Shown here one piece after another: positions 13,619-64,000 of a stretch of 64,000 nucleotides of DNA. Origin of the DNA: Trogon surrucura. Taxonomy: Eukaryota > Chordata > Aves > Trogoniformes > Trogonidae. A model generated the notes under the pieces. That model had not been told where the DNA came from. It was given only the letters and a program-made list of their open reading frames with translations, and did not search any database. The translations under genes and the position numbers were made by a program. Numbering within the stretch: the stretch's first letter is position 1; each line of letters begins with the position of its first letter. The DNA lies in the NCBI GenBank assembly GCA_020746105.1, contig JAJGST010000022.1, positions 1,518,276-1,582,275 of the forward strand, written 5' to 3'.

Positions 13619-14091
13619 CCTTGTAAATGGAACTTTTATGCAAACCTCACCTTGTCACTGCCATTGCTGCAAATGTGATCTTGATGGATTAACTGGCATT
13701 GAAACGAAGTGCCAATGCTACCTACAAGAGAAGTGGGGGAGGGGAAGGAAAAAAAAATTCATTAAAATGAAAACCCAATTCCCTTGAACACTAAAATAAA
13801 TATAGACAAGTGTACCAGCCAGAAACTATTTTTACACAGCACAGATATTTACTTGCCAAACATCTATATCATCACACAGCTCTTATATTCAAGACAATAA
13901 GTAGCAGAGAGACATTTGTCAGTGTGCCAGCAATAACTTCACTGAGGTTATTGTTTTTAATGCTTAAAGATAGCAAAACCAGCACTGGTTCATCAATCCA
14001 AACCAAACATATGCAGTAAAATACATATGCACAAACTTAAGTAAGGACTAAGCTGTACTGAACCAAAATAAGGACTAAGCTGTGCCTCTGC

Positions 14092-14343
14092 TCTGCTCGA
14101 ATCGTCAGGGTGCATACAACAAAAGAGAAATTTCAGAAAGGTTATGAACAGATGTTCACGGATGAAATTTTCATAGTAACTGAGGTTGTGAGAAGGGGAC
14201 AGATACTCTTGTACTGCTTAATAGACTATGGTCATGAAGCAATCAAGGGGATATTTTATGTTGAAAAGAATGCTTGTAGACAAGGGTTTTTACATCACGC
14301 TGCGCAGCAATGCCAGTGCCAGAAATTTCCCATGAAACACTAG
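14092..14343 (+). pseudogene. Polinton/Maverick integrase C-terminal fragment
   Basis: The open stretch reads RIVRVHTTKEKFQKGYEQMF, then TDEIFIVTEVV and LIDYGHEAIKGIFYVEK. In Polinton and adintovirus retroviral-type integrases the C-terminal region has the pattern F-x-KGY, then (W/F)T-x-E-x-F-x-V, then Y-x-L-x-DY-x-x-E-x-I-x-G-x-FY. The match is by motif only. No DDE catalytic core was found upstream. A short duplication (TAAGGACTAAGCTGT at 14042 and 14069) precedes it. The frame stops at 14341. The reading direction agrees with the capsid-gene remnants downstream to 18374. Confidence 0.65.
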
Positions 14344-14430
14344 CTCGAACTTCACCTCACAGCTGGTGAGACCCCTGGAGCTCTGAGGCAAGGGGGAGGT
14401 GGGTCTTGCGGAAATACAGTACCCACACAT

Positions 14431-14612
14431 CTGAAATAACATTGACAAAGATACCATCTTTAAAATAGCACTGCGGGGCAAGACATGGCAGTATACTTTG
14501 TGGAAAGGCTGTTATCCAGGCCTCTCCATGTTGATGGAGATCAATCTTATTATGAATAATCTTATTAACCTCCGCAACAAAGCTTCAGCCACTGACTCTC
14601 CAGCAGTAAGCC
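14431..14612 (+). pseudogene. Possible Polinton penton N-terminal fragment
   Basis: One frame reads DTIFKIALRGKTWQYTLWKG and then CYPG before decaying. The spacing of an L-x-G-x-x-W-x-x-L block before a YP pair resembles the N-terminal region of penton-like minor capsid proteins in Polintons. The stretch lies between the integrase remnant and the penton C-terminal remnant, with an LTR inserted after it. About 90 bp of it (14431-14520) recurs inverted at about 25380-25468. The assignment is tentative. Confidence 0.4.
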
Positions 14613-14616
14613 TGGT

Positions 14617-15080
14617 TGTGGTTTAACTCCTACTGGCAGCTAAGCACCACACAGCCACTCACTCACAGTGGAATGGAAGGGTAAAAGTCCAAAACTCGTG
14701 AGTTGAGATAAAGAATAAGTAAAAAACCAAAAATACAAAAAGAAATACAACAAAGAAAAACCCAAGAAAAACAAGTGATGCAAAAACCCAGCAACTGCTC
14801 ACCACCAGCCAAACAATGCCCAACCAGTCTGCAAGCAATGGCAAACTTCCCCCCCCTCCCAGTTTTTATTGCTGAGCATGACATCATATGGTATGGAATA
14901 TCCCATTGGTCAGTTTGGGTCAGCTGTCCTGGCTGTATTCCTTCCCAACTTCTTGCACGCCCCCAGCCTGCTCACTGGCAGGGCAGTGTGTAAAGCAGAA
15001 AATGCCTTGATGTTGTGTAAGTACTGTTCAGCAATAGCTAAAACATGAGTGTGTTATCAACACTGTTTTCACCACAAGTC
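14617..15080 (-). mobile_element. ERVL-type LTR inserted in the Polinton
   Basis: On the minus strand it starts near TGTGGTGAAAACAGTGTTGA, passes CCATACCATATGATGTCATGC, AGCAATAAAAACTGGG and TTATCTCAACTCACGAG, and ends GGAGTTAAACCACA. That is the arrangement of a common avian ERVL LTR. The end points are approximate and I did not find a convincing target duplication. It separates the two penton-like pieces. Confidence 0.7.
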
Positions 15081-15186
15081 CAAAATGTAGCACCATAGGA
15101 GCTACTATGAAAAAAAAAAAACACAACTCCACCCAGGACATTGGTCTACCATCCTGTCATAAGGAAAACAAAGCTTAAAGCGAATG

Positions 15187-15553
15187 AAAATCCTTGACGC
15201 TTTTCCTACAACTGGGGAAATAGAACATATTTTGGGGTCTTCTCCAGGGATTGCTGCCTTTGTGGCAGACATCACTGGAGGGTTTAACTTGCTCTGCCTC
15301 TACACAGACTTTGTAGAGCGCTAGCTTGTTGGGGACGTTTTGTTTTCCCTATTGCACTGTGTTCCAACCAGCAGTAATGACAATGAGACTGTTACAGCGA
15401 CATATGATAAACCGCACTGTGCCAGTAAACTGCCAGAACATCGACACAATCAGCATTGAAATAAAGACTGACCAAAACAATCATGTCTCACTGTGCTTTG
15501 TGAAGGTGACTGTGAAGTTGCATCTGTGGACCCAGAAGTCTCTGAAATTTTAG
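15187..15553 (+). pseudogene. Polinton penton-like minor capsid, C-terminal remnant
   Basis: One frame reads GGFNLLCLYTDFVER, then a TAG at 15322-15324, then LVGDV. A second frame carries RLLQRHMINRTVPVN, DTISIEIKTDQNNHVSL and FVKVTVKLHL to the stop at 15551. The pattern matches the C-terminal half of penton-like minor capsid proteins of Polintons and adintoviruses: an LYVYCD-like strand followed by VGD, then an I-x-I-x-(I)-x-x-D block and K-V-x-V-x-L-H. At least one stop and one frameshift show it is dead. It directly precedes the small virion-protein remnant. Confidence 0.72.
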
Positions 15554-15605
15554 AAACCATTCCAAATAGGTAGTGATAAAGAACTATGAGGAACTGGCCT
15601 TGTAC

Positions 15606-15857
15606 ATGAATTAATACAGAGCCCAGGCTGACAATGGTCTCCCTGGTTTTCAAGGCATTCCTGTGATGTATGGGATGGACACTGGAGGTATATTCCATAG
15701 CCTGTTTAGAAAGGTCATTCTGTTTTTGAAAAGGGGTTTGGAAATTGTTAAGCCATATGTTAAAAGCATCATTCAAGACATGGCAACAAATGTGTTCGGG
15801 TGCATTTCCAAGAACCTCCCGGACAAGCCAGAAACGCCAGCAAAGCAGGAGGTCTGA
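15606..15857 (+). pseudogene. Polinton/adintovirus small glycine-rich virion protein remnant
   Basis: From ATG 15606 the frame reads MN, a TAA at 15612-15614, then YRAQADNGLPGFQGIPVMYG, MDTGGIFHSLFRKVILFLKR, GLEIVKPYVKSIIQDMATNV, ending at 15857 (about 83 codons). A GLP motif near the start, then a GG-I/L-F-x-x-L-F-R stretch and an amphipathic helix rich in K, is typical of the small protein encoded between penton and hexon in adintoviruses and Polintons. The gene order here agrees. The early stop and later decay make it a pseudogene. Confidence 0.75.
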
Positions 15858-16090
15858 AGGTTTGATTATATTCAAAGAAAGAGCTTTAAAAGAGAGAGAG
15901 ATGCTTCATGCCCCCAGAGGGAAGGCTGACCCCAGCCCCTTAAAAGAAATAGGATGGGTGGTGCCAGGCAGCAGTCTGACTAGGGCAGGAAGAAGAAAAA
16001 GAACAAGACAGGCTGAATGGTGTAAAATAAATGGAAAACCCAAAGAATGGGGGCCCATTCTACTTCTAGAAAAGGGGCTATATTTTGACA

Positions 16091-16241
16091 GGGATACCTT
16101 TTGTTCACAGCTCCTCAGAAGAATGTATCAGTTCTGAGCCGGATTTGTTTGAAGTGTCTCCGCTTTTAGCTATCATGGAGCCTACATCTCTGGACTTATT
16201 CATAGCTGGGAATGGAAAAGATACCACAAATATGAACAATC
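16091..16241 (+). pseudogene. Polinton hexon-like major capsid, N-terminal remnant
   Basis: The frame reads PFVHSSSEECISSEPDLFEV and later TSLDLFIAGNGKDTTNMNN. An S-E-E-C-x-x-S-E-x-D-L-F opening followed some 30 residues later by a (V/I)-x-G-x-G-x-D block is characteristic of the double-jelly-roll major capsid of Polintons and adintoviruses. About 15 codons between the two blocks look lost. The frame is cut at 16241 by a CR1 insertion and resumes at 18242. Confidence 0.75.
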
Positions 16242-18195
16242 ATAGAATCATAGAACAGTTTTGGTTGGAAGAGACCTTCAAGATCATCGAGTCCAACCTT
16301 TGCCCTAGCCCTATCAACACCAACAAACCATGTCCCTCAGCACAACATCTACCCGTCTCTTAAACACCTCCAGGGATGGCGACTCAACCACCTCCCTGGG
16401 CAGCCTGTTCAATGGCTGACAAACATTTCAGTAAAGAAATTCTTCCTAATACCCAACCTGAACCTCCCCTGGTGCAATTTAAATCCATTTCCCCTCGTCC
16501 TATCACTCTCCCACAGCATCCTCATTGGTAAACTGAGGAAGTGTGGTCTGGATGACCAAGTAGTCAGGTGGGTCGCTAATTGGTTGAAGGGAAGAAGCCA
16601 GAGAGTTGTGGTCAATGGGACTGAGTCTGGCTGGATGCCTGTGTCTAGTGGGGTCCCTCAGGGGTCAGTGCTCGGGCCGGTGCTCTTTAATATATTTATC
16701 AATGACCTGGACGAGCGATTAGAGAATGTTGTCAGCAAGTTTGCTGATGATACGAAATTGGGAGGAGTGGTTGACTCACCAGAAGGCTGTGCAGCCATTC
16801 AGAGAGACCTGGACAGGCTGGAGGGCTGGGCGGGGAGAAATCTTATGCGGTTCAACAAGGGCAAGTGTAGAGTCTTGCACTTGGGAAAGAATAACCCCAT
16901 GTGCCTATATAGGTTGGGGACTGCCCTGCTGGAGAGCAGCGCAGGGGAAAGGGACCTGGGGGTTCTAGTGGACAGCAGGATGCCCATGAGCCAGCAATGT
17001 GCCCTCGTGGCCAAGAAGGCCAATGGCATCCTGGGGTGTATTAGAAGGGGAGTAGCGAGTCGGTCGAGAGAGGTCCTCCTGCCTCTCTACTCTGCCCTGG
17101 TGAGGCCGCATCTGGAATATTGTGTCCAGTTCTGGGCCCCTCAGTTCAAGAAGGACAGGGAACTGCTGGAGAGAGTCCAGCGCAGAGCCACAAAGATGGT
17201 GAAGGGAGTGGAGCATCTCCCTTATGAGGAAAGGCTGAAGGAGCTGAATCTCTTTAGCTTGGAGAAGAGGAGGCTGAGGGGTGACCTCATTAATGTTTAT
17301 AAATATTTAAAGGGGGAGTGTCAGGAGGACGGAGACAGGCTCTTTTCAGCGGCGTCCACTGACAGGACAAGGGGCAATGGGTGAAAGCTGGAACATAGGA
17401 GGTTCCATAAAAATATGAGAAAAAACTTTTTTACTGTGAGGGTGACCGAGCACTGGAACAGGCTGCCCAGGGAGGTTGTGGAATCTCCTTCTTTGGAGAC
17501 ATTCATAACCCGCCTGGACGCGTTCCTGTGCGCTCTGCTGTAGGGTCCTGCTCCCGCAGGGGGGTTGGACTAGATGATCTTTGAGGTCCCTTCCAACCTC
17601 TAACATTCTGTGATTCTGTGATTCCACTAGGGAGAACAGACCAACCCCTGCCTCGCTACAACCTCCCTTCAGGTAGTTGTGGAGAGCGATAAGGTCTCCC
17701 CTCAGTCTCCTCTTCTCCAGGCTAAACAGCCCCAGATCTCTAAGCCTTTCCTCATACGACTTGTGTTCTAAGCCCTTTCCCACCTAGGCAGCCCGCCTCT
17801 GTACTCTCTCCAGCACCTCAACGTCCCTCTTGTAGTGAGGGGCCCAAAACTGGACACAGTACTCGAGGTGCGGCCTCACCGAAGCCGAGTAGAGGGGAAT
17901 GATCACCTCCCTGCTCCTGCTGACTACACTGCTCCTGATTCAGGCCAGGATGCCGTTGGCCTTCTTGGCCACCTGGGCACACTGCTGGCTCCTGTTCAGC
18001 TGGCTGTCCATCAACACCCCCAGGTCCCTCTCTGCCTGGCAGCTCTCCAGCCACTCTTCCCAAGCCTGTAGTGCTGCTGGGGGTTGTTGTGGCCAAAGTG
18101 CAGGACCTGGCATTTGACCTTATTGAAACTCATGTGATTGGCCTTGGCCCAGTGATCCAGCCCATCCAGATCCCTCTGTAGAGCCTCCCTGCCAT
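16242..18195 (-). mobile_element. CR1 LINE split by a second CR1
   Basis: A minus-strand CR1 has its 3' tail at 16242-16252 and reads to 16511 (C-terminal end). It resumes at about 17626 (GGAGAACAGACCAACCCC) and continues to about 18195. The gap is filled by a plus-strand CR1. This older CR1 sits inside the Polinton hexon remnant. The same subfamily is at 2229. Confidence 0.83.
16512..17625 (+). mobile_element. CR1 LINE fragment with RT catalytic box
   Basis: The frame 16584-17384 (266 codons) carries [52 protein letters not shown] (the RT motif C aspartates) and the C-terminal region [20 protein letters not shown]. Motif A lies upstream of the truncation, so no complete RT is encoded. A stop at 17382-17384 precedes the normal end. 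The 3' end is (GATTCTGT)n near 17610-17622. Confidence 0.85.
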
Positions 18196-18241
18196 ACTCT
18201 GCTATACCTTTGCTGCAAGTTCTCTAAAAGATGCTGGGTCC

Positions 18242-18374
18242 AACTGTGGCGCCGGTGAGGTGTCCATGGGACTGGCAAATTACCTGTTGGCCTCTGTTTT
18301 CAGTCATCTGGACATTATGCCACAGGACCAAGTAATAAGCCAGACTAACAACTGCTGTCCCTATCGCACCTTCA
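18242..18374 (+). pseudogene. Polinton hexon-like major capsid, continued
   Basis: One uninterrupted frame reads VSMGLANYLLASVFSHLDIM and then PQDQVISQTNNCCPYRTFNR. The block NY-x-x-x-S-(I/V)-FS-x-(V/L)-D-(V/I), then (I/V)-SQ-(S/T)-x-N-x-x-PYR, is a conserved core region of Polinton/adintovirus hexons. It lies on the far side of the CR1 nest at 16242-18195, in the orientation and order expected from the piece at 16091-16241, which strengthens both calls. A short CR1 piece follows at 18375. The ATPase, protease and DNA polymerase B genes of a full Polinton are not visible. Confidence 0.78.
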
Positions 18375-18485
18375 ATAGAATCATTTAGGTTGGGAAAGAC
18401 CTTTAAGATCATCAAGTCCAACTGTAAACCTAACACTTCTAAGTCCACCAGGTAAAAAGTGTGAACCCAGTGCTCCAGCATGGGT
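18375..18485 (-). mobile_element. CR1 3' end fragment
   Basis: AATAGAATCATTTAGGTTGGGAAAGACCTTTAAGATCATC is the reverse complement of a CR1 3' end. It abuts the Polinton hexon remnant. The fragment is short and old. Confidence 0.7.
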
Positions 18486-19489
18486 CCTTTCCACAGGATA
18501 CAGTCACTACTTTACTTAAACAAAAAATTGTCAGACATTACAATTGCTTTCAATATTTTTTTCTTGTTTTTAAAGTAGTAAGTCAAGAATCATATGTGAG
18601 TTTTGGTTAATTGGTGTGTACATTCACTTTGCCGTAAACTCATTTTGTTCAAGGACGTGATCTTCAAAGTTAATTGTTCAGAAAAGTTTTAAACCGCTTT
18701 GGCCAGTGGTGGTTCCATCTTGGAGCTGACTGGAACCAACTCTGTCCAACATGGACGCAGTTCCTGTTCTCTTCTCACAGAAGCCCCCCTGCAGCCCCCT
18801 CCCTGATTCTGCTGTCAAAACCATGTCACATAAAGGCGATACAGTTTCACAGGGGTTTTTATTGCTATTATTTTGGTCTATGTTGTAAGAATGAAATAAC
18901 ACCAGTTTTATTTAGGACAACACAGTTTTTCATGTAGATATAGTTTTACATTTTGAAAGCTTCACTGTTAATTCAAACATCAGTCATTATTTTGCTTCAT
19001 ATTCTTTCCGATATTGTTTACAGAGGAATACTTGCTCAAGGTACTAGAAATGGTAGAAGGGTTTTTCACCTTTGGGTACAGTAATTTCTCTCAAGACTAG
19101 GTTGACAGACATCCAAAATAATTATTAGACGTGTGGCCAGTACAAAATGAAAGTGGGAGCCTCCATTTAATTCATAAAGGAGATGCATGCACATTGCAAA
19201 ATCCACTAAAGCGACCCCCATACCACCTATGGTAAATTCTGTGGAATTTAATTTATAATTGTTATATAGGAAGGGAATTATAGTTATAATTGTGGTGTAC
19301 CTGGGTATAAGGGCTGTGCTTGTGTGTAGAGCCAGTGGGCCTAGCCATCAGTTCCCTGGATAGTCCAGGAGCTTACCACCTAGTCTCTGCTACTTGAGAC
19401 AATGGACTGACTTGAAACAAGGTGATTGGTAACTCCTCACCCCTTCACAGCAAAGCATTTGACTAATTGTTACAGGACCTCTCCCAGTG
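18486..19489. other. AT-rich DNA, no recognised gene
   Basis: This is nondescript sequence within the left arm, mirrored at about 58130-59134. It includes a short open frame near 18674-18937 with no protein features. Nothing further is supported. Confidence 0.45.
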
Positions 19490-20470
19490 GGAATGTCAGC
19501 CCAGGAGGCCCGACAGCCTGGCCTCGGTGCTAGGAGCAGATCATCTTGAGTGCCATCGCACAGTACGTACAGGACAATCATGTGATCAAGTTCATTCAGC
19601 ATAGGTTTATGAAAGGCAGGTCCTGCTGGACTAACCTAATCTCCTTCTATAACAAGGTGACCCGCTTGGTGGATGAGGGGATGGCTGTGTGATTCTGTGA
19701 TTCTGTGGATGTTGTCTACCTGGACTTTTGTAAAGCCTTTGACACCATTTTCCACAGCATTCTCCTGGAAAAAAACTGGCTGCTCGTGCCTTAGATGGGC
19801 GTACTCTTTGCTGGGTGAAAAACTGGCTGGATTGCCTGGCCCAAAGAGTGGTGGTGAATGGAGTTAAATCCAGCTGGCAGCTGGTCAAAAGTGGTGTTCC
19901 CCAAGGCTCAGTATTGAGGCCAGTTCTGTTAAAAATCTTTATCAGTTATCCTTCCAGTACCTAAAGAAAGCTGGAGAGGGACTTTTTACAAGGGCATGTG
20001 GTGATAGGACAAGGGTAATGGCTTTAAACTGAAAGAGTGTAGATTTAGATTGGATACAAGGAAGAAATTCTTCACCGTGAGGGTGGTAAGGCAGTGGAAC
20101 AGGTTTCCCAGAGAGGTTGTGGATGTTCCATCCCTGGAAGTATTCAAGGCCAGATTGGATGAGGCTTTGAGCAATCTTGTGTAGTGTCTTTAAGGCCCCT
20201 TCCATCCCAAACCATGATTCTATGATACTGTGATTCAGTGCACCCTCAGTAAGTTTGGAGATGACACCAAGTGGGGTGAGAGTGTTGAGGTTGCTCAGAG
20301 AGGTGGTGGAAGCCCCATCCCTGGAAGTTTTTGAGGCCAGGCTGGATGGGGCTCTGAGCAGCCTGATCTAGCGGGAGATGTCCCTGCCCATGGCAGGGGG
20401 GTTGGAACTAGATGATCTTTAAGGTCCCTTCCAACCCTGACAATTCTATGATTCTACGATTCTATGATCT
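19490..20470 (+). mobile_element. CR1 fragments (mosaic)
   Basis: RT sequence around 19540-19960 ([21 protein letters not shown], then [15 protein letters not shown] near 19705, then [20 protein letters not shown] near 19850) joins directly to a 3' end at about 19965-20240. A second 3' end follows at 20241-20470 with (TTCTATGAT)n. Internal deletions and a GTGATTCTGTGATTCTGTG intrusion at about 19690 break the frame. It is inactive. Confidence 0.75.
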
Positions 20471-21740
20471 GCTTGAGTGTAGGAAGGCTCTACAGAGATC
20501 TGGACAGGCTGGATGGGCTAAGGCCAGTTGTATGAGGTTCAGCAAGGCTAAGTGTCAGGTCCTGCACTTGGATCACAGCCACCCCATGCAGTCCTACAGG
20601 CTTGAGGAAGAGTGGCTGGAAAGCTGCCTGGTGGAAAAGGACCCGGGGGTGTTGGTCAACAGCTGAGTGTATCAGAAATAGTATGACCAGCAGGACTAGT
20701 GAAGTGATCGTGCCTTTTTACTTGGCACTGGTGTGGCCACACCTTGAATACTGTGTGTCGCGGGTTAGGGCTGGGCCAGCCACTAACACGGGCAGACGCT
20801 CTCTAACCCACTCTTCCCCCCTCCTCCCAAACGGGAAGAGAAAAGGGAATGAGGCAGAGAGACTTACGGATTAGAGGAGGAAAAAAACTAGAACAGCTTT
20901 AATGAAAATAATGGGAATAATGGTAAAACGATAAAAGTAAAGAATTATATACAACTATAGATAGTAGCCCGATATCAAACCCGACTCCCTCCCCCGATAG
21001 AAATCACCACTGGTGCTGCAGAGCAGGAGGCACTGGGGAAGCCCCAGGCTCAGCAGCAGCAGGAGCTGGATACAGGGAGCTGGATTCGGGAACTCAGGAT
21101 CCGGATCAAAAGCAGGAGGTCAGATGGAGTCCTCTCTGGACACCGGCCATTGCAGAAAAAGGGCGAACAAAAAGCAAAAAAGGGACAAAACTCTCGTGAT
21201 CACTCAATTTATACTGGATATGACGTATATGGGATGGAATACTCTCGTTGGTCACCTGTCCTGTCTGTTACCCCCCGGAGGTGCCACCTTTTGCTTCCTT
21301 GTGCCCCCCTCTTACTACCCGGCACCCCCAGCGTGGCACCCAAGAGCCAGCAGTGGCCTTGGTCACTAGAGGAATAAGTATCAGCAAGAGCCTTTCTGCA
21401 CACCAGTCCCAGGCAGTGACTGTAAACATCAGGTGTTATCACTGCCAGTAGCACACACTGTCTGCAAAAGCATGCTGCTGACTTCAGAAAGTGCAGCCTT
21501 TTAGAAGACACTAAACTGGAAAGCAAAAGTCACTAAACAGGACTGGGTTTTTAGCTAAACCCAGGACACTGTGTTTAGTTTTGGGCCCCTAACTACAAGA
21601 AAGACATTGAGGTGCTGGAGCAGGTCCAAAGAAGAGCTGTGAAGCTGGTGAAGAGTCTAGAGAACAAGTCTTATTAGGAGTGGCTCAGGGACTTGGGGTT
21701 GTTTAGCCTGGAGAAAAGGAGGCTCAGTTTTAATCCCTCT
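20471..21740 (+). mobile_element. CR1 fragment split by an LTR
   Basis: CR1 C-terminal sequence at 20471-20755 ([10 protein letters not shown]) resumes at 21574 (TTTAGTTTTGGGCCCCT) after the LTR at 20756-21568 and runs to about 21738 (GGAGAAAAGGAGGCTCAG). The split codon context shows one original element. Confidence 0.8.
20756..21568 (-). mobile_element. Solo LTR, 813 bp, ERVL-like
   Basis: It reads TGTCGCGGGTTAGGGC to CCCAGGACA on the plus strand. It is flanked by CTGTG at 20751-20755 and 21569-21573, a perfect 5-bp target duplication in the surrounding CR1. A TATA-like motif (on minus, CAGTATAAATTGAG) lies near 21210. It is the mirror of 56054-56866. Confidence 0.85.
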
Positions 21741-22102
21741 TTTTTTTTTTTTAAATGAAAGAATATTTAAGAACACATCTTTTGGTTATGCACTCCCTCC
21801 TCAAATAATCCCATAATTGTATTTTTGGAAAGGAAAAAATAGCCCCAAAAAATGGTTGAATCTCCCTGTTAGTCTGAACAACCCTCACGCATGATTTCAA
21901 TACACTGAAATTATTAAATTTTACAGACTACTTAATAGTAGATAATTTTAATAAATGGCCATCAAACCTAGATAGATTTTTAGCTTGAACCTAAAAAATT
22001 GATATCAGTTGCAAACTACAAGAATTGATCCAGCTGTCACAGCTTATTTAAAACTGTTAGAATTTGTTCTCACAAGCAGGCTTCGAAGTGAGTCTAGATT
22101 TC
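21741..22102. other. AT-rich DNA, no feature
   Basis: This stretch contains a T-run near 21750 and nondescript AT-rich sequence. Nothing is recognised. Confidence 0.45.
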
Positions 22103-23000
22103 TGTGGTGGGTTAACATTGTCCGTCTGACAGATGCCCACCAAGCCATTCTCTCACTCCCTCTCCTCAGCAAGATGGGAAATTCACGGATCGAGATGAGG
22201 ACAGGGAGATTGCACACAAATTACCGTCATGGGCAAAACAGACTCAACTTGAGAAAATTAATTTAATTTATTGCCAAATAAAAATAGAGTAGGATAGTGA
22301 AAAAGCACCTTCCCCCCACCCTTCTTCCCAGGCTCAACTTAACTCCTGACTTCAATGACTGGCACTCAGAAACCCCTATGCATTTCAGTTGCTGACACCA
22401 CAGGCCAGGGGGCACCTACACCCTGGTCTGACTTGAGTTGCTGGCACCAAATCCATTCATGCCAGTCTCACCAGTAGCTAGAACCTACTCCTTACAGCAC
22501 TCACACACACAGGGTAGAGAGTGATATTACACAGAGAGATACTTAAGAAAGGATTTACTGAAAAGATAGGACAGACTGCACTGATCAGGCACAGGGCTTG
22601 GTCAGACAAGCATATCGAACTGGCCGCTTTCATACCCATTTCTGTCTATTCCCCACTTTGTTCCTCTCCAGTCACCTTCCCCTAAATGTTCCCTAATAGA
22701 TTTTGGAACAGCCACCCCTACAATATCCCACATTCTCATGTGCCTGTTGTTTCCCTCTTATCAGTTACAAAAACCAGGTGGTCCTCTCCAAAGCTACACC
22801 TGTAGTTTCTTGATGGCCATCAATTAGTAAGACATCAGTTACTGAGAGATTTTTGGTCCTTGACATTGTCTCTGTTATCCTTTGTCTACCAAGTTTCTGT
22901 CTCTGTGGTTTCTTGTTAATCTTATCTCCTTTTACATTGAAAAGGCCGTTCATCAGATAACCTTAGTGAAGCAGATGGTCTCCCATGTACCCTTACACTC
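22103..23000 (-). mobile_element. LTR or LTR-like nest, right end not resolved
   Basis: It begins TGTGGTGGGTTAACATTGTCC. Its first 220 bp resemble the LTRs at 6031 and 41965 (GAGATGAGGACAGGGAGAT, GGGCAAAACAGACTCAACTT). Further in, GTTGCTGACACC and GTTGCTGGCACC blocks resemble the remnant at 5763 and the region at 43703. At least two LTR families are probably superimposed. No coding content is seen. It is mirrored at about 54621-55518. Confidence 0.55.
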
Positions 23001-24465
23001 AGTTTGTCCTGTAGCTCTTTTGTACCTATTAACAGTTCCTAGATCCCTCAGTGCTGTAAACACTGCAAGACTCCCAGCAAAACAGATTATTGTCATTTAG
23101 ATCAATTAAATAGCAGAGCTTTTTATCTGTTCTAGAATGAGCAAGACTGTAGGATTCTGTCCATCCCGTCCCCAATGCCTTTTACAATAGTCAGGTGGAC
23201 AGTCTAATCAAAACACAGCTCTCTTTGTAGGAGAGTGATGACCCAATCTTAAAAAAAAATCTGCACTCATATTGTTTAAATTAATAGTGAAAGAATATAA
23301 ACTTGTGTACATTGACAGCTTCAAGACAGATCTGAGCATAATTGCCAGCTTCAAACAGCTGGAGTAGATGAACAAGAATTTTCTCTACACCCTGAACAAA
23401 TATTTCATAAGCTTCATATAGTGATACCTGATATAAATTAACAATACTGTATTCTTCTACACATCACTTAACTCCAAACCTCTTGCTTTGCAGAGGGCTG
23501 CAGTAACCAGGAAGTCACTTCCAGGGGGTCATTTTCTGCCCTAGTAGGACACATTCACTGGCCCATGAGATTCACAAAAGCAATTTACAGTTTATGTCCC
23601 CTGAGGCCCCTGTAAACCCCTTGCCAACAAGATGTTTGAAGTGATACAAAATTAATTTAGTTTTCCTAATTAGTAGTCTTCCTTGTGACAGTGTTTTCAG
23701 TTTTGCTAGCCTGTGAACCAAGGCCCTAGGATTATCAGCACCAGCAGCCCTTTTATGCCCTCCTTCTTGCCTGCCACTTCTCTGTACCAGATAATAATCA
23801 CGGTCTTTCATCTCTGCAACACCCCATTGGCTCTTACTGCTCCCCTTGCTACTTCTGCAGTAGCTGTGGTTTCTAAGAGATAATACTTCCAACCAGTAAG
23901 GTGTACACAGTTATAGGGAAAATTTCCAAGGAAAGTGACAAAGTACGAAAGACTTATCATCATCAAAGAAAACACTAGAAAATATTAAGATGAGTTAGTG
24001 TAAGCACATACATTGAACCACTACAAGTAAAATAACATAACTTTGATTCTAGAACCTTAGGGTAAGGAAGAGGCAAATCTGGGCATTTTACACATTCTGT
24101 ATATTTCGTGTTAAGTATTTTACTTCACTAATCTGTATCATATAAATGTTTAATTTAAGGGAAGAATCTGTCCCTTATTTAGTGCCTGGCAGCTCTTAGT
24201 ACCAGCACTGCTCCTCTGGTGCTTTAATTTTTACATTACTATCGGGCGGTCAGTTTAGCTTTATTTGCCTAAGAACTAAGGAAATAGCTGAATGAGGTCT
24301 CTGAAAGAGACATTCCAAAGTAGTTAAAAGTTGCATCTTTGTAGGTTTATTTACAAATAATAATAGCAAGAAATTAAATGAGCAGGCAATCAGTTAACAG
24401 ATTGCCTAGTCTTGCCTAAGACTGAGAGAAGGTCTAACCATGTATAATGTAGAAATACTTAGACC
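23001..24465. other. Unrecognised single-copy-like DNA
   Basis: The longest frame, 23572-23892 minus (106 codons), shows no domain, signal peptide or repeat and matches no family I recognise. It is likely a chance frame, conserved in the other arm only because the arms are near-identical. No other feature is seen. Confidence 0.4.
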
Positions 24466-24469
24466 GTTA

Positions 24470-24984: not shown

Positions 24985-24989
24985 GTTAG

Positions 24990-52152: not shown

Positions 52153-52637
52153 TCTGAAATAACATTGGCAAAGACACCATCTTTAAAATAGCACTGCGGG
52201 GCAAGACATGGCAGTATACTTTGTGGAAAGGCTGTTATCCAGGGAAAATGCTATTGCTTAAAATATTACTTTGCTTTGAACTCCAACAATGGCTTCCCAT
52301 GAAAGGTAAATAGAGAGATATATTATTTTTCAGTGCCTTTCAACCATATTCAGTTTATTTTCTTGAAACATTTTTACTCCATTTGCCTTTTATTTTGACA
52401 CTGGTATAATTCCACAAAAAGATGTTTCCACTAGTTGAAAAGAAACATATAGTCTGCAATACCTCTGATTGCTAACTGTCTTTAGATTAATGCAGGAACA
52501 ATCTGATTGGAGGTTTGTTTTTTTTTTTCTAAGACTTTGTGTTTCACAGTGGAAAGTACTACATAATGCAGCTTGTCATGCTATGTTTACTTATAGAAAA
52601 TGCAAATTTGAAACTTATGAAATCTCTGGGTCCTAAC

Positions 52638-53152: not shown

Positions 53153-54620
53153 TAACGGTCTAAGTATTTCTACATTATACATGGTTAGACCTTCTCTCAG
53201 TCTTAGGCAAGACTAGGCAATCTGTTAACTGATTGCCTGCTCATTTAATTTCTTGCTATTATTATTTGTAAATAAACCTACAAAGATGCAACTTTTAACT
53301 ACTTTGGAATGTCTCTTTCAGAGACCTCATTCAGCTATTTCCTTAGTTCTTAGGCAAATAAAGCTAAACTGACCGCCCGATAGTAATGTAAAAATTAAAG
53401 CACCAGAGGAGCAGTGCTGGTACTAAGAGCTGCCAGGCACTAAATAAGGGACAGATTCTTCCCTTAAATTAAACATTTATATGATACAGATTAGTGAAGT
53501 AAAATACTTAACACGAAATATACAGAATGTGTAAAATGCCCAGATTTGCCTCTTCCTTACCCTAAGGTTCTAGAATCAAAGTTATGTTATTTTACTTGTA
53601 GTGGTTCAATGTATGTGCTTACACTAACTCATCTTAATATTTTCTAGTGTTTTCTTTGATGATGATAAGTCTTTCGTACTTTGTCACTTTCCTTGGAAAT
53701 TTTCCCTATAACTGTGTACACCTTACTGGTTGGAAGTATTATCTCTTAGAAACCACAGCTACTGCAGAAGTAGCAAGGGGAGCAGTAAGAGCCAATGGGG
53801 TGTTGCAGAGATGAAAGACCGTGATTATTATCTGGTACAGAGAAGTGGCAGGCAAGAAGGAGGGCATAAAAGGGCTGCTGGTGCTGATAATCCTAGGGCC
53901 TTGGTTCACAGGCTAGCAAAACTGAAAACACTGTCACAAGGAAGACTACTAATTAGGAAAACTAAATTAATTTTGTATCACTTCAAACATCTTGTTGGCA
54001 AGGGGTTTACAGGGGCCTCAGGGGACATAAACTGTAAATTGCTTTTGTGAATCTCATGGGCCAGTGAATGTGTCCTACTAGGGCAGAAAATGACCCCCTG
54101 GAAGTGACTTCCTGGTTACTGCAGCCCTCTGCAAAGCAAGAGGTTTGGAGTTAAGTGATGTGTAGAAGAATACAGTATTGTTAATTTATATCAGGTATCA
54201 CTATATGAAGCTTATGAAATATTTGTTCAGGGTGTAGAGAAAATTCTTGTTCATCTACTCCAGCTGTTTGAAGCTGGCAATTATGCTCAGATCTGTCTTG
54301 AAGCTGTCAATGTACACAAGTTTATATTCTTTCACTATTAATTTAAACAATATGAGTGCAGATTTTTTTTTAAGATTGGGTCATCACTCTCCTACAAAGA
54401 GAGCTGTGTTTTGATTAGACTGTCCACCTGACTATTGTAAAAGGCATTGGGGACGGGATGGACAGAATCCTACAGTCTTGCTCATTCTAGAACAGATAAA
54501 AAGCTCTGCTATTTAATTGATCTAAATGACAATAATCTGTTTTGCTGGGAGTCTTGCAGTGTTTACAGCACTGAGGGATCTAGGAACTGTTAATAGGTAC
54601 AAAAGAGCTACAGGACAAAC

Positions 54621-55518
54621 TGAGTGTAAGGGTACATGGGAGACCATCTGCTTCACTAAGGTTATCTGATGAACGGCCTTTTCAATGTAAAAGGAGATAA
54701 GATTAACAAGAAACCACAGAGACAGAAACTTGGTAGACAAAGGATAACAGAGACAATGTCAAGGACCAAAAATCTCTCAGTAACTGATGTCTTACTAATT
54801 GATGGCCATCAAGAAACTACAGGTGTAGCTTTGGAGAGGACCACCTGGTTTTTGTAACTGATAAGAGGGAAACAACAGGCACATGAGAATGTGGGATATT
54901 GTAGGGGTGGCTGTTCCAAAATCTATTAGGGAACATTTAGGGGAAGGTGACTGGAGAGGAACAAAGTGGGGAATAGACAGAAATGGGTATGAAAGCGGCC
55001 AGTTCGATATGCTTGTCTGACCAAGCCCTGTGCCTGATCAGTGCAGTCTGTCCTATCTTTTCAGTAAATCCTTTCTTAAGTATCTCTCTGTGTAATATCA
55101 CTCTCTACCCTGTGTGTGTGAGTGCTGTAAGGAGTAGGTTCTAGCTACTGGTGAGACTGGCATGAATGGATTTGGTGCCAGCAACTCAAGTCAGACCAGG
55201 GTGTAGGTGCCCCCTGGCCTGTGGTGTCAGCAACTGAAATGCATAGGGGTTTCTGAGTGCCAGTCATTGAAGTCAGGAGTTAAGTTGAGCCTGGGAAGAA
55301 GGGTGGGGGGAAGGTGCTTTTTCACTATCCTACTCTATTTTTATTTGGCAATAAATTAAATTAATTTTCTCAAGTTGAGTCTGTTTTGCCCATGACGGTA
55401 ATTTGTGTGCAATCTCCCTGTCCTCATCTCGATCCGTGAATTTCCCATCTTGCTGAGGAGAGGGAGTGAGAGAATGGCTTGGTGGGCATCTGTCAGACGG
55501 ACAATGTTAACCCACCAC
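54621..55518 (+). mobile_element. LTR or LTR-like nest (mirror of 22103)
   Basis: This is the right-arm copy. It ends AATGTTAACCCACCACA. A polyadenylation-like CAATAAATTAAATT lies near 55350. The left boundary is unresolved. Confidence 0.55.
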
Positions 55519-55880
55519 AGAAATCTAGACTCACTTCGAAGCCTGCTTGTGAGAACAAATTCTAACAGTTTTAAATAAGCTGTGACAGCTGGATCAATTC
55601 TTGTAGTTTGCAACTGATATCAATTTTTTAGGTTCAAGCTAAAAATCTATCTAGGTTTGATGGCCATTTATTAAAATTATCTACTATTAAGTAGTCTGTA
55701 AAATTTAATAATTTCAGTGTATTGAAATCATGCGTGAGGGTTGTTCAGACTAACAGGGAGATTCAACCATTTTTTGGGGCTATTTTTTCCTTTCCAAAAA
55801 TACAATTATGGGATTATTTGAGGAGGGAGTGCATAACCAAAAGATGTGTTCTTAAATATTCTTTCATTTAAAAAAAAAAA

Positions 55881-57151
55881 AAGAGGGATTAAAACTGAGC
55901 CTCCTTTTCTCCAGGCTAAACAACCCCAAGTCCCTGAGCCACTCCTAATAAGACTTGTTCTCTAGACTCTTCACCAGCTTCACAGCTCTTCTTTGGACCT
56001 GCTCCAGCACCTCAATGTCTTTCTTGTAGTTAGGGGCCCAAAACTAAACACAGTGTCCTGGGTTTAGCTAAAAACCCAGTCCTGTTTAGTGACTTTTGCT
56101 TTCCAGTTTAGTGTCTTCTAAAAGGCTGCACTTTCTGAAGTCAGCAGCATGCTTTTGCAGACAGTGTGTGCTACTGGCAGTGATAACACCTGATGTTTAC
56201 AGTCACTGCCTGGGACTGGTGTGCAGAAAGGCTCTTGCTGATACTTATTCCTCTAGTGACCAAGGCCACTGCTGGCTCTTGGGTGCCACGCTGGGGGTGC
56301 CGGGTAGTAAGAGGGGGGCACAAGGAAGCAAAAGGTGGCACCTCCGGGGGGTAACAGACAGGACAGGTGACCAACGAGAGTATTCCATCCCATATACGTC
56401 ATATCCAGTATAAATTGAGTGATCACGAGAGTTTTGTCCCTTTTTTGCTTTTTGTTCGCCCTTTTTCTGCAATGGCCGGTGTCCAGAGAGGACTCCATCT
56501 GACCTCCTGCTTTTGATCCGGATCCTGAGTTCCCGAATCCAGCTCCCTGTATCCAGCTCCTGCTGCTGCTGAGCCTGGGGCTTCCCCAGTGCCTCCTGCT
56601 CTGCAGCACCAGTGGTGATTTCTATCGGGGGAGGGAGTCGGGTTTGATATCGGGCTACTATCTATAGTTGTATATAATTCTTTACTTTTATCGTTTTACC
56701 ATTATTCCCATTATTTTCATTAAAGCTGTTCTAGTTTTTTTCCTCCTCTAATCCGTAAGTCTCTCTGCCTCATTCCCTTTTCTCTTCCCGTTTGGGAGGA
56801 GGGGGGAAGAGTGGGTTAGAGAGCGTCTGCCCGTGTTAGTGGCTGGCCCAGCCCTAACCCGCGACACACAGTATTCAAGGTGTGGCCACACCAGTGCCAA
56901 GTAAAAGGCACGATCACTTCACTAGTCCTGCTGGTCATACTATTTCTGATACACTCAGCTGTTGACCAACACCCCCGGGTCCTTTTCCACCAGGCAGCTT
57001 TCCAGCCACTCTTCCTCAAGCCTGTAGGACTGCATGGGGTGGCTGTGATCCAAGTGCAGGACCTGACACTTAGCCTTGCTGAACCTCATACAACTGGCCT
57101 TAGCCCATCCAGCCTGTCCAGATCTCTGTAGAGCCTTCCTACACTCAAGCA
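55881..57151 (-). mobile_element. CR1 fragment split by an LTR (mirror of 20471)
   Basis: This is the right-arm copy. The CR1 is interrupted by the LTR at 56054-56866. One T of a T-run differs from the left arm near 56905, shifting the local frame. Confidence 0.8.
56054..56866 (+). mobile_element. Solo LTR, 813 bp (mirror of 20756)
   Basis: TGTCCTGGGTTTAGC to CCCGCGACA, flanked by CACAG at 56049-56053 and 56867-56871. It has the TATA-like CAGTATAAATTGAG and TCATTAAAGC. Confidence 0.85.
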
Positions 57152-58131
57152 GATCATAGAATCGTAGAATCATAGAATTGTCAGGGTTGGAAGGGACCTT
57201 AAAGATCATCTAGTTCCAACCCCCCTGCCATGGGCAGGGACATCTCCCGCTAGATCAGGCTGCTCAGAGCCCCATCCAGCCTGGCCTCAAAAACTTCCAG
57301 GGATGGGGCTTCCACCACCTCTCTGAGCAACCTCAACACTCTCACCCCACTTGGTGTCATCTCCAAACTTACTGAGGGTGCACTGAATCACAGTATCATA
57401 GAATCATGGTTTGGGATGGAAGGGGCCTTAAAGACACTACACAAGATTGCTCAAAGCCTCATCCAATCTGGCCTTGAATACTTCCAGGGATGGAACATCC
57501 ACAACCTCTCTGGGAAACCTGTTCCACTGCCTTACCACCCTCACGGTGAAGAATTTCTTCCTTGTATCCAATCTAAATCTACACTCTTTCAGTTTAAAGC
57601 CATTACCCTTGTCCTATCACCACATGCCCTTGTAAAAAGTCCCTCTCCAGCTTTCTTTAGGTACTGGAAGGATAACTGATAAAGATTTTTAACAGAACTG
57701 GCCTCAATACTGAGCCTTGGGGAACACCACTTTTGACCAGCTGCCAGCTGGATTTAACTCCATTCACCACCACTCTTTGGGCCAGGCAATCCAGCCAGTT
57801 TTTCACCCAGCAAAGAGTACGCCCATCTAAGGCACGAGCAGCCAGTTTTTTCCAGGAGAATGCTGTGGAAAATGGTGTCAAAGGCTTTACAAAAGTCCAG
57901 GTAGACAACATCCACAGAATCACAGAATCACACAGCCATCCCCTCATCCACCAAGCGGGTCACCTTGTTATAGAAGGAGATTAGGTTAGTCCAGCAGGAC
58001 CTGCCTTTCATAAACCTATGCTGAATGAACTTGATCACATGATTGTCCTGTACGTACTGTGCGATGGCACTCAAGATGATCTGCTCCTAGCACCGAGGCC
58101 AGGCTGTCGGGCCTCCTGGGCTGACATTCCC
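57152..58131 (-). mobile_element. CR1 fragments, mosaic (mirror of 19490)
   Basis: This is the right-arm copy. The A-run near 19772 is one base shorter here, so the local reading frames differ between arms. Confidence 0.75.
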
Positions 58132-59247
58132 ACTGGGAGAGGTCCTGTAACAATTAGTCAAATGCTTTGCTGTGAAGGGGTGAGGAGTTACCAATCACCT
58201 TGTTTCAAGTCAGTCCATTGTCTCAAGTAGCAGAGACTAGGTGGTAAGCTCCTGGACTATCCAGGGAACTGATGGCTAGGCCCACTGGCTCTACACACAA
58301 GCACAGCCCTTATACCCAGGTACACCACAATTATAACTATAATTCCCTTCCTATATAACAATTATAAATTAAATTCCACAGAATTTACCATAGGTGGTAT
58401 GGGGGTCGCTTTAGTGGATTTTGCAATGTGCATGCATCTCCTTTATGAATTAAATGGAGGCTCCCACTTTCATTTTGTACTGGCCACACGTCTAATAATT
58501 ATTTTGGATGTCTGTCAACCTAGTCTTGAGAGAAATTACTGTACCCAAAGGTGAAAAACCCTTCTACCATTTCTAGTACCTTGAGCAAGTATTCCTCTGT
58601 AAACAATATCGGAAAGAATATGAAGCAAAATAATGACTGATGTTTGAATTAACAGTGAAGCTTTCAAAATGTAAAACTATATCTACATGAAAAACTGTGT
58701 TGTCCTAAATAAAACTGGTGTTATTTCATTCTTACAACATAGACCAAAATAATAGCAATAAAAACCCCTGTGAAACTGTATCGCCTTTATGTGACATGGT
58801 TTTGACAGCAGAATCAGGGAGGGGGCTGCAGGGGGGCTTCTGTGAGAAGAGAACAGGAACTGCGTCCATGTTGGACAGAGTTGGTTCCAGTCAGCTCCAA
58901 GATGGAACCACCACTGGCCAAAGCGGTTTAAAACTTTTCTGAACAATTAACTTTGAAGATCACGTCCTTGAACAAAATGAGTTTACGGCAAAGTGAATGT
59001 ACACACCAATTAACCAAAACTCACATATGATTCTTGACTTACTACTTTAAAAACAAGAAAAAAATATTGAAAGCAATTGTAATGTCTGACAATTTTTTGT
59101 TTAAGTAAAGTAGTGACTGTATCCTGTGGAAAGGACCCATGCTGGAGCACTGGGTTCACACTTTTTACCTGGTGGACTTAGAAGTGTTAGGTTTACAGTT
59201 GGACTTGATGATCTTAAAGGTCTTTCCCAACCTAAATGATTCTATTG

Positions 59248-59380
59248 AAGGTGCGATAGGGACAGCAGTTGTTAGTCTGGCTTATTACTTGGTCCTGTGG
59301 CATAATGTCCAGATGACTGAAAACAGAGGCCAACAGGTAATTTGCCAGTCCCATGGACACCTCACCGGCGCCACAGTTGG
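59248..59380 (-). pseudogene. Polinton hexon-like capsid, continued (mirror of 18242)
   Basis: This is the same conserved block as in the left arm (NYLLASVFSHLDIM, VISQTNNCCPYRTF) read on the minus strand. See the entry at 18242-18374 for reasons. Confidence 0.78.
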
Positions 59381-59424
59381 ACCCAGCATCTTTTAGAGAA
59401 CTTGCAGCAAAGGTATAGCAGAGT

Positions 59425-61379
59425 ATGGCAGGGAGGCTCTACAGAGGGATCTGGATGGGCTGGATCACTGGGCCAAGGCCAATCACATGAGTTTCAATAA
59501 GGTCAAATGCCAGGTCCTGCACTTTGGCCACAACAACCCCCAGCAGCACTACAGGCTTGGGGAAGAGTGGCTGGAGAGCTGCCAGGCAGAGAGGGACCTG
59601 GGGGTGTTGATGGACAGCCAGCTGAACAGGAGCCAGCAGTGTGCCCAGGTGGCCAAGAAGGCCAACGGCATCCTGGCCTGAATCAGGAGCAGTGTAGTCA
59701 GCAGGAGCAGGGAGGTGATCATTCTCCTCTACTCGGCTTCGGTGAGGCCGCACCTCGAGTACTGTGTCCAGTTTTGGGCCCCTCACTACAAGAGGGACGT
59801 TGAGGTGCTGGAGAGAGTACAGAGGCGGGCTGCCTAGGTGGGAAAGGGCTTAGAACACAAGTCGTATGAGGAAAGGCTTAGAGATCTGGGGCTGTTTAGC
59901 CTGGAGAAGAGGAGACTGAGGGGAGACCTTATCGCTCTCCACAACTACCTGAAGGGAGGTTGTAGCGAGGCAGGGGTTGGTCTGTTCTCCCTAGTGGAAT
60001 CACAGAATCACAGAATGTTAGAGGTTGGAAGGGACCTCAAAGATCATCTAGTCCAACCCCCCTGCGGGAGCAGGACCCTACAGCAGAGCGCACAGGAACG
60101 CGTCCAGGCGGGTTATGAATGTCTCCAAAGAAGGAGATTCCACAACCTCCCTGGGCAGCCTGTTCCAGTGCTCGGTCACCCTCACAGTAAAAAAGTTTTT
60201 TCTCATATTTTTATGGAACCTCCTATGTTCCAGCTTTCACCCATTGCCCCTTGTCCTGTCAGTGGACGCCGTTGAAAAGAGCCTGTCTCCGTCCTCCTGA
60301 CACTCCCCCTTTAAATATTTATAAACATTAATGAGGTCACCCCTCAGCCTCCTCTTCTCCAAGCTAAAGAGATTCAGCTCCTTCAGCCTTTCCTCATAAG
60401 GGAGATGCTCCACTCCCTTCACCATCTTTGTGGCTCTGCGCTGGACTCTCTCCAGCAGTTCCCTGTCCTTCTTGAACTGAGGGGCCCAGAACTGGACACA
60501 ATATTCCAGATGCGGCCTCACCAGGGCAGAGTAGAGAGGCAGGAGGACCTCTCTCGACCGACTCGCTACTCCCCTTCTAATACACCCCAGGATGCCATTG
60601 GCCTTCTTGGCCACGAGGGCACATTGCTGGCTCATGGGCATCCTGCTGTCCACTAGAACCCCCAGGTCCCTTTCCCCTGCGCTGCTCTCCAGCAGGGCAG
60701 TCCCCAACCTATATAGGCACATGGGGTTATTCTTTCCCAAGTGCAAGACTCTACACTTGCCCTTGTTGAACCGCATAAGATTTCTCCCCGCCCAGCCCTC
60801 CAGCCTGTCCAGGTCTCTCTGAATGGCTGCACAGCCTTCTGGTGAGTCAACCACTCCTCCCAATTTCGTATCATCAGCAAACTTGCTGACAACATTCTCT
60901 AATCGCTCGTCCAGGTCATTGATAAATATATTAAAGAGCACCGGCCCGAGCACTGACCCCTGAGGGACCCCACTAGACACAGGCATCCAGCCAGACTCAG
61001 TCCCATTGACCACAACTCTCTGGCTTCTTCCCTTCAACCAATTAGCGACCCACCTGACTACTTGGTCATCCAGACCACACTTCCTCAGTTTACCAATGAG
61101 GATGCTGTGGGAGAGTGATAGGACGAGGGGAAATGGATTTAAATTGCACCAGGGGAGGTTCAGGTTGGGTATTAGGAAGAATTTCTTTACTGAAATGTTT
61201 GTCAGCCATTGAACAGGCTGCCCAGGGAGGTGGTTGAGTCGCCATCCCTGGAGGTGTTTAAGAGACGGGTAGATGTTGTGCTGAGGGACATGGTTTGTTG
61301 GTGTTGATAGGGCTAGGGCAAAGGTTGGACTCGATGATCTTGAAGGTCTCTTCCAACCAAAACTGTTCTATGATTCTAT
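59425..61379 (+). mobile_element. CR1 split by a second CR1 (mirror of 16242)
   Basis: A plus-strand CR1 is interrupted by a minus-strand CR1 (about 59995-61108). The inner element's frame 60237-61037 minus carries [11 protein letters not shown] and [20 protein letters not shown]. It lies inside the hexon remnant. Confidence 0.83.
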
Positions 61380-61530
61380 GATTGTTCATATTTGTGGTAT
61401 CTTTTCCATTCCCAGCTATGAATAAGTCCAGAGATGTAGGCTCCATGATAGCTAAAAGCGGAGACACTTCAAACAAATCCGGCTCAGAACTGATACATTC
61501 TTCTGAGGAGCTGTGAACAAAAGGTATCCC
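61380..61530 (-). pseudogene. Polinton hexon-like capsid, N-terminal (mirror of 16091)
   Basis: This is the same SEECISSEPDLF and AGNGKDTTNMNN blocks on the minus strand, cut by the CR1 at 61379. Confidence 0.75.
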
Positions 61531-61763
61531 TGTCAAAATATAGCCCCTTTTCTAGAAGTAGAATGGGCCCCCATTCTTTGGGTTTTCCATTTATTTTACA
61601 CCATTCAGCCTGTCTTGTTCTTTTTCTTCTTCCTGCCCTAGTCAGACTGCTGCCTGGCACCACCCATCCTATTTCTTTTAAGGGGCTGGGGTCAGCCTTC
61701 CCTCTGGGGGCATGAAGCATCTCTCTCTCTTTTAAAGCTCTTTCTTTGAATATAATCAAACCT

Positions 61764-62015
61764 TCAGACCTCCTGCTTTGCTGGCGTTTCTGGCTTGTCC
61801 GGGAGGTTCTTGGAAATGCACCCGAACACATTTGTTGCCATGTCTTGAATGATGCTTTTAACATATGGCTTAACAATTTCCAAACCCCTTTTCAAAAACA
61901 GAATGACCTTTCTAAACAGGCTATGGAATATACCTCCAGTGTCCATCCCATACATCACAGGAATGCCTTGAAAACCAGGGAGACCATTGTCAGCCTGGGC
62001 TCTGTATTAATTCAT
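61764..62015 (-). pseudogene. Polinton small virion protein remnant (mirror of 15606)
   Basis: This is the same glycine-rich, amphipathic frame, including MDTGGIFHSLFRKVILFLKR and the early stop. Confidence 0.75.
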
Positions 62016-62067
62016 GTACAAGGCCAGTTCCTCATAGTTCTTTATCACTACCTATTTGGAATGGTTT

Positions 62068-62434
62068 CTAAAATTTCAGAGACTTCTGGGTCCACAGATG
62101 CAACTTCACAGTCACCTTCACAAAGCACAGTGAGACATGATTGTTTTGGTCAGTCTTTATTTCAATGCTGATTGTGTCGATGTTCTGGCAGTTTACTGGC
62201 ACAGTGCGGTTTATCATATGTCGCTGTAACAGTCTCATTGTCATTACTGCTGGTTGGAACACAGTGCAATAGGGAAAACAAAACGTCCCCAACAAGCTAG
62301 CGCTCTACAAAGTCTGTGTAGAGGCAGAGCAAGTTAAACCCTCCAGTGATGTCTGCCACAAAGGCAGCAATCCCTGGAGAAGACCCCAAAATATGTTCTA
62401 TTTCCCCAGTTGTAGGAAAAGCGTCAAGGATTTT
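62068..62434 (-). pseudogene. Polinton penton-like C-terminal remnant (mirror of 15187)
   Basis: This is the same two frames (GGFNLLCLYTDFVER; DTISIEIKTDQNNH to VTVKLHL) on the minus strand, with the same internal stop and frameshift. Confidence 0.72.
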
Positions 62435-62540
62435 CATTCGCTTTAAGCTTTGTTTTCCTTATGACAGGATGGTAGACCAATGTCCTGGGTGGAGTTGTGT
62501 TTTTTTTTTTTTCATAGTAGCTCCTATGGTGCTACATTTT

Positions 62541-63004
62541 GGACTTGTGGTGAAAACAGTGTTGATAACACACTCATGTTTTAGCTATTGCTGAACAGTA
62601 CTTACACAACATCAAGGCATTTTCTGCTTTACACACTGCCCTGCCAGTGAGCAGGCTAGGGGCGTGCAAGAAGTTGGGAAGGAATACAGCCAGGACAGCT
62701 GACCCAAACTGACCAATGGGATATTCCATACCATATGATGTCATGCTCAGCAATAAAAACTGGGAGGGGGGGGAAGTTTGCCATTGCTTGCAGACTGGTT
62801 GGGCATTGTTTGGCTGGTGGTGAGCAGTTGCTGGGTTTTTGCATCACTTGTTTTTCTTGGTTTTTCTTTGTTGTATTTCTTTTTGTATTTTTGGTTTTTT
62901 ACTTATTCTTTATCTCAACTCACGAGTTTTGGACTTTTACCCTTCCATTCCACTGTGAGTGAGTGGCTGTGTGGTGCTTAGCTGCCAGTAGGAGTTAAAC
63001 CACA
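62541..63004 (+). mobile_element. ERVL-type LTR (mirror of 14617)
   Basis: This is the right-arm copy, with AGCAATAAAAACTGGG near 62750 and GAGTTAAACCACAACC at its end. A homopolymer in the U5-like region differs by one base from the left arm. Confidence 0.7.
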
Positions 63005-63008
63005 ACCA

Positions 63009-63190
63009 GGCTTACTGCTGGAGAGTCAGTGGCTGAAGCTTTGTTGCGGAGGTTAATAAGATTATTCATAATAAGATTGATCTCCATCAACATGGAGAGG
63101 CCTGGATAACAGCCTTTCCACAAAGTATACTGCCATGTCTTGCCCCGCAGTGCTATTTTAAAGATGGTATCTTTGTCAATGTTATTTCAG
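63009..63190 (-). pseudogene. Possible Polinton penton N-terminal fragment (mirror of 14431)
   Basis: This is the right-arm copy of the fragment that includes the 90-bp module. It carries the same tentative assignment. Confidence 0.4.
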
Positions 63191-63277
63191 ATGTGTGGGT
63201 ACTGTATTTCCGCAAGACCCACCTCCCCCTTGCCTCAGAGCTCCAGGGGTCTCACCAGCTGTGAGGTGAAGTTCGAG

Positions 63278-63529
63278 CTAGTGTTTCATGGGAAATTTCT
63301 GGCACTGGCATTGCTGCGCAGCGTGATGTAAAAACCCTTGTCTACAAGCATTCTTTTCAACATAAAATATCCCCTTGATTGCTTCATGACCATAGTCTAT
63401 TAAGCAGTACAAGAGTATCTGTCCCCTTCTCACAACCTCAGTTACTATGAAAATTTCATCCGTGAACATCTGTTCATAACCTTTCTGAAATTTCTCTTTT
63501 GTTGTATGCACCCTGACGATTCGAGCAGA
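63278..63529 (-). pseudogene. Polinton integrase C-terminal fragment (mirror of 14092)
   Basis: This is the same KFQKGYEQMF, TDEIFIVTEVV and DYGHEAIKGIFYVEK stretch on the minus strand. Confidence 0.65.
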
Positions 63530-64000
63530 GCAGAGGCACAGCTTAGTCCTTATTTTGGTTCAGTACAGCTTAGTCCTTACTTAAGTTTGTGCATATGTAT
63601 TTTACTGCATATGTTTGGTTTGGATTGATGAACCAGTGCTGGTTTTGCTATCTTTAAGCATTAAAAACAATAACCTCAGTGAAGTTATTGCTGGCACACT
63701 GACAAATGTCTCTCTGCTACTTATTGTCTTGAATATAAGAGCTGTGTGATGATATAGATGTTTGGCAAGTAAATATCTGTGCTGTGTAAAAATAGTTTCT
63801 GGCTGGTACACTTGTCTATATTTATTTTAGTGTTCAAGGGAATTGGGTTTTCATTTTAATGAATTTTTTTCCTTCCCCTCCCCCACTTCTCTTGTAGGTA
63901 GCATTGGCACTTCGTTTCAATGCCAGTTAATCCATCAAGATCACATTTGCAGCAATGGCAGTGACAAGGTGAGGTTTGCATAAAAGTTCCATTTACAAGG

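Follow-up and report, generated by a model that had tools for sequence, protein, structure and literature searches.

A palindrome among transposable elements on a W-linked contig of Trogon surrucura, probably made recently by rearrangement

How did a long palindrome come to lie among transposable elements on a bird contig, and are its arms alike because they are young or because they have been kept alike? We address this for a stretch of 64,000 nucleotides (the window) from the Trogon surrucura assembly GCA_020746105.1, which occupies positions 1518276-1582275 of contig JAJGST010000022.1 (C61; 3,870,694 bases) and for which an earlier note, made from the letters alone, had described near-identical inverted arms around a spacer of about 23.2 kb. 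The assembly searched comprises 1,165,559,148 bases in 164 contigs. On C61 we read the window plus 100 kb on either side (264 kb), and on contig C67, where the homologous place lies, we read the surrounding 29 kb. Positions without a contig name are those of the window. Based on the junctions of the arms and their match to C67, we lean towards a W palindrome made recently by rearrangement among transposons, as an inversion with a duplicated breakpoint flank, an origin that we consider moderately probable.

The arms themselves are clear. In the self-alignment, 13619-27188 pairs in inverted orientation with 64000-50433 (99.867% identity over 13,573 columns), with 10 mismatches and 7 gap openings, all seven of which are length differences in single-base runs. 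This confirms the arms and spacer described earlier, with exact inner coordinates, and the length and identity of the match exclude a chance origin. The edges at 13619 and 64000 are merely the effect of the window's end, because the arms extend to C61:1508770 and C61:1605206 in the self-alignment of the longer stretch; the outer edge does lie outside the window, as the note had said. In full, the left arm (plus strand) covers C61:1508770-1545463 (36,694 bases), starting at window position -9505 and occupying 1-27188 within the window, and the right arm (minus strand) covers C61:1568708-1605206 (36,499 bases), occupying 50433-64000 within the window and stopping at position 86931. They align in two pieces (99.865% and 99.801%) separated by one insertion. 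The spacer (27189-50432; 23,244 bp) is single copy in the 264 kb, which contains no N bases. The arms are mostly transposable elements: RVT_1 frames are present, and about 64% of the arm matches elsewhere in the 264 kb, a share that is approximate since it is based on self-matches without a repeat library.

On which chromosome does the palindrome lie? A 911-bp arm query (13150-14060) has three matches in the genome, namely the two arms and C67:45640426-45641265 (66%), the arm segment concerned being 13169-14047 (plus strand). The low-copy arm segment 27051-27163 (plus strand), as its mirror 50458-50570, has C67:45638180-45638290 (79%) as its sole full-length partner outside the arms among 40 scored of 129 candidates. 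Arm segment 24209-24339 (plus strand; mirror 53283-53413) matches C67:45637702-45637838 at 73%, and spacer segment 46688-46748 (minus strand) has a weak match, 79% over 62 columns, at C67:45639518-45639579. The genome holds four CHD1-like C-terminal matches, on C67 (87.9 Mb), C89 (50.9 kb), C14 and C24, and 28 MH2 matches, four of which (one on C63, three on C64) have counterparts on C67. We take the matched exons to belong to SMAD2, SMAD7 and CHD1, with the Z or W status that we assume for these genes; by this linkage C67 is presumably the Z chromosome, and C63, C64 and C89 are presumably W pieces. Because low-copy arm segments match C67 besides the arms, the locus on C61 is, judged by this homology and by the assumed identity of C67, W-linked. 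The earlier suggestion of an avian W location is thereby upheld: the other genome match of these arm segments is on C67, and the CHD1-like and MH2 matches there have partners on C89, C63 and C64. A fourth, weaker CHD1-like match, C24:9399660-9399857, is on neither Z nor a W piece.

The Z counterpart can be used to ask which inner junction is older. Along Z, the homologues of arm segments 24209-24339 and 27051-27163 come first, in this order, followed by the right end of the spacer (50309-50192 and then 46748-46688), so Z runs from arm into spacer in the manner of the right inner junction. When the right arm and the flank that continues it (50060-50432, minus strand; here X) were aligned to Z together, the alignment covered query positions 10-389 and passed through the boundary at position 147, whereas the alignment of the left arm plus the adjoining gag sequence covered 10-123 and ended short of the boundary. 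Alone, X scores 137 against Z, where 200 shuffles reach no more than 74; gag alone scores 28, equal to the shuffle median (28) and below the shuffle maximum (45). Reversed and block-shuffled Z controls gave no hits. Since the Z alignment crosses the right inner boundary and halts before the left one, the right inner junction, with X as its flank, is ancestral and the left inner junction is new, as far as the Z alignment tells. Exactly at the left inner junction, within gag, starts a provirus that lacks its 5' end (27189-34976, plus strand). It comprises a gag core, pol, integrase and env-like frames (Gag_p30, RVT_1, RNase_H, rve and MLVIN_C) and an end resembling a 3' long terminal repeat (LTR) at about 34438-34976; the LTR limits and env were named by eye.

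The outer junctions offer a similar contrast between old and new. An open frame of 293 amino acids (C61:1508092-1508970; CR1-like by eye) spans the left outer boundary. The same frame is whole in a third copy at C61:1642038-1642916 and is cut at the right outer boundary, where the sequence becomes a CR1 3' end (by eye). The left outer junction therefore looks ancestral and the right outer one looks derived. Each arm thus has one old and one new junction, on opposite sides: left-outer old and left-inner new, right-inner old and right-outer new. The third copy belongs to a pair of flanking repeats in direct order, C61:1497605-1505932 with 1624840-1633167 (99.94%) and C61:1505932-1510661 with 1639879-1644607 (99.83%), which show 12 substitutions over about 13.06 kb (about 0.1%). 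Three copies therefore exist of the outermost 1.9 kb of the arm: those in the two arms agree but for the edge itself, and the third has four differing sites close to its end. Between the halves of the third copy lies another provirus (C61:1633167-1639878), whose LTRs differ at 8 of 367 columns (about 2.2%; about 97.5% alike) and around which no target-site duplication is visible.

A rearrangement of the following kind would give this pattern of junctions. Before the event, the order on the W would have been A-arm-X; A denotes the outer flank, and X the flank that still adjoins homologous sequence on Z. An inversion by staggered or replicative breaks, one within the provirus gag and one within the CR1-like frame, would have reversed the spacer segment of 23 kb, leaving a 36.7 kb copy of its flank at each end. 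End joining or template switching would be likelier than recombination between repeats, because neither new junction links corresponding positions of a single repeat. The arms would later have collected ordinary mutations and one short interspersed element (SINE). The palindrome may then have arisen as a side effect of high transposon density on a chromosome without recombination with Z, and we ascribe no function to it. With Z as a guide to the ancestral state, the locus is a clean case for reconstructing from junctions what happened, and in which order, at a young W palindrome.

Differences between the arms bear on what happened afterwards. With the ten outermost bases set aside, 36,478 aligned bases contain 32 substitutions; there are also 18 indels, of which 17 measure 1-4 bp and the remaining one 193 bp. 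Polarity by related repeat copies makes 14 of the 32 substitutions derived in the right arm and 9 in the left, with 9 undecided. Mutation in both arms would give such a pattern, although conversion would be compatible with it too. At an assumed rate of 1-2 substitutions per 10^9 sites and year, and assuming no conversion, the divergence of 0.088% would correspond to roughly 0.2-0.4 million years. The 193-bp indel is a tRNA-headed SINE with a CR1-like tail, inserted at 2525-2716 (plus strand) in the left arm only. In its head, ARAGORN and Rfam both predict a tRNA, and its tail is similar to CR1 3' ends. The right arm and a related CR1 copy show no interruption at this site. This comparison indicates that the SINE entered the left arm when the two arms already existed, unless its absence from the right arm is due to replacement of that stretch. 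The family is young, with 39 other places at 94-99% among the 40 scored of 4,112 candidates. The earlier statement that every insertion is shared thus stands within 13619-27188, where no one-arm insertion was seen, and fails over the full arms; its corollary, that the arms formed after the insertions common to both, is supported. SINEs with tRNA heads and CR1 tails are treated for passerines in passages of PMC5729268. An older SINE copy in the spacer has a tRNA-like match at 39580-39638 (Rfam tRNA, 35.8 bits).

How well does a single inversion with a duplicated flank account for the locus? Several observations weigh against it. A duplicated flank of 36.7 kb is long for simple staggered breaks. 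The third partial copy, about 20 kb past the right arm, means that the locus was rearranged more than once, and segment 13169-14047 follows the homologue of X on Z and precedes X in the arms, so an earlier W rearrangement is needed as well. If a single inversion made the locus, the sequence past the right outer edge should originally have bordered the broken gag. The 264 kb contain no second copy of the LTR end of the spacer provirus, nor any other match to 26923-34977; a further deletion must therefore be assumed. The substitutions are also unevenly spread: against 5,000 uniform draws, a cluster of 6 of the 32 spanning 290 bp (24547-24836) has p 0.001 and a concentration of 20 in a single 12.6 kb stretch has p 0.017, while windows of 1,100, 2,000 and 5,000 bp give p values of 0.050, 0.117 and 0.031, all uncorrected for the five window sizes. 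The longest stretch without a substitution is 6,651 bp (p 0.055). A different history is one in which the arm was first copied in inverted orientation to a nearby site, creating two new junctions (in the CR1-like frame and in the provirus gag), after which a crossover between the arms flipped the spacer and exchanged the inner junctions. Such an insertion followed by a flip yields an identical pattern of old and new junctions, near-identical inverted arms are able to recombine (PMC3723533 reports rare inversions between the arms of palindrome P6 on the human Y), and the third partial copy shows that copying took place here more than once. It takes two events where one may suffice, and we regard it as possible but rather unlikely.

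Patchy arm differences also fit an older palindrome whose arms have been kept alike by arm-to-arm gene conversion, the alternative that the earlier note had left open and one for which the W palindrome of the white-throated sparrow, where conversion is reported according to passages of PMC3403216, provides a precedent. The provirus within the third copy adds to this case: its LTR divergence, taken at face value, exceeds what insertion after copying would allow, and because the LTRs are 2.2% apart and the surrounding copies about 0.1%, later homogenisation of the flanks is one way to explain the mismatch. The mismatch could also have come from exchange between LTRs, which may diverge through exchange with other copies, or from loss of the provirus from the left copy. 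Within the arms, the SINE was neither converted away nor converted across, the differences resemble ordinary single mutations in both arms, and no feature demands more time than about 0.1% divergence gives. Arm-to-arm conversion is thus not needed by the data, and we think an older, converted palindrome unlikely. Similarly improbable, in our judgement, is a gene-free palindrome that was homogenised by conversion together with its flanking direct copies, with no gene to protect; if this were true, conversion would characterise the chromosome itself and would not stem from selection on genes. Such homogenisation would show in the provirus of the third copy, whose LTRs are further apart than the copies around it. 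Two markers, the one-arm SINE and the third partial copy, would allow conversion to be tested in other individuals. Finally, one stretch might have been placed twice in opposite directions by the assembly. The 17 small indels, mostly in single-base runs, could partly be sequencing error, but the 32 substitutions, the 193-bp SINE in one arm, the four junctions with different flanks, the match of one inner junction to Z and the unbroken 264 kb make such an artefact very improbable. An inversion with a duplicated flank remains the origin that we favor.

Do the arms carry a gene that a palindrome could protect? Among ten frames scanned, nine contain retroelement domains and one, at 15450-15902, contains none. 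We also scanned 20 stop-to-stop frames of the left arm, one of them an extra and 19 drawn from the 31 that reach 65 amino acids in chosen low-repeat stretches; all lie in the window part of the arm, inside its outer 9.5 kb. None of the 20 reaches the Pfam cut-off. Neither a host gene nor a multicopy gene was recognised among the scanned frames, and within that scope the earlier impression of arms free of recognisable host genes is borne out.

Comparable structures are known. Pekin duck W palindromes built of nested transposable elements, without robustly expressed genes, have already been reported in passages of PMC7787181, and the palindrome described here resembles them in its avian W setting and in its nested transposons, with no gene recognised in the frames scanned; its length falls inside the duck range given there (15.2-345.5 kb). 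Another avian W inverted repeat is reported to hold part of a CHD1W intron and to bear signs of conversion, whereas no host gene is recognised here. The gene-bearing palindromes of the primate Y (PMC3723533, in part) share the long, near-identical inverted arms, the spacer and the sex-limited chromosome, but they differ from this locus, where no gene was found among the scanned frames. For the debate on whether sex-chromosome palindromes exist to protect genes, the locus offers an example of a second kind, with none recognised. Non-homologous junctions also characterise the inverted copy-number variants attributed to origin-dependent inverted-repeat amplification (ODIRA) or template switching in passages of PMC10766186, where spacers reach at most 34.9 kb after secondary rearrangement; unlike those human disease variants, the present case is a germline-fixed W locus. 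The density of transposable elements on the avian W exceeds 55% according to part of PMC8310711. A word search of the available text of PMC8310711 and PMC11745021 found no mention of palindromes, and no further reports of avian W palindromes were recognised in the open-licence literature, judged by titles and the starts of abstracts.

One class of insertion named in the earlier note fared less well. It had listed a Polinton among the elements shared by the arms; none of the 20 left-arm frames matches one at the Pfam cut-off, and below it are three weak matches, to XAF1_C, CDH-cyt and ARMH2. Within the arm, an inverted pair of 91 bp (14430-14520 and 25378-25468; 98% complementary) stands 10.9 kb apart and is the one feature seen that could be the terminal repeats of such an element, possibly an old one.

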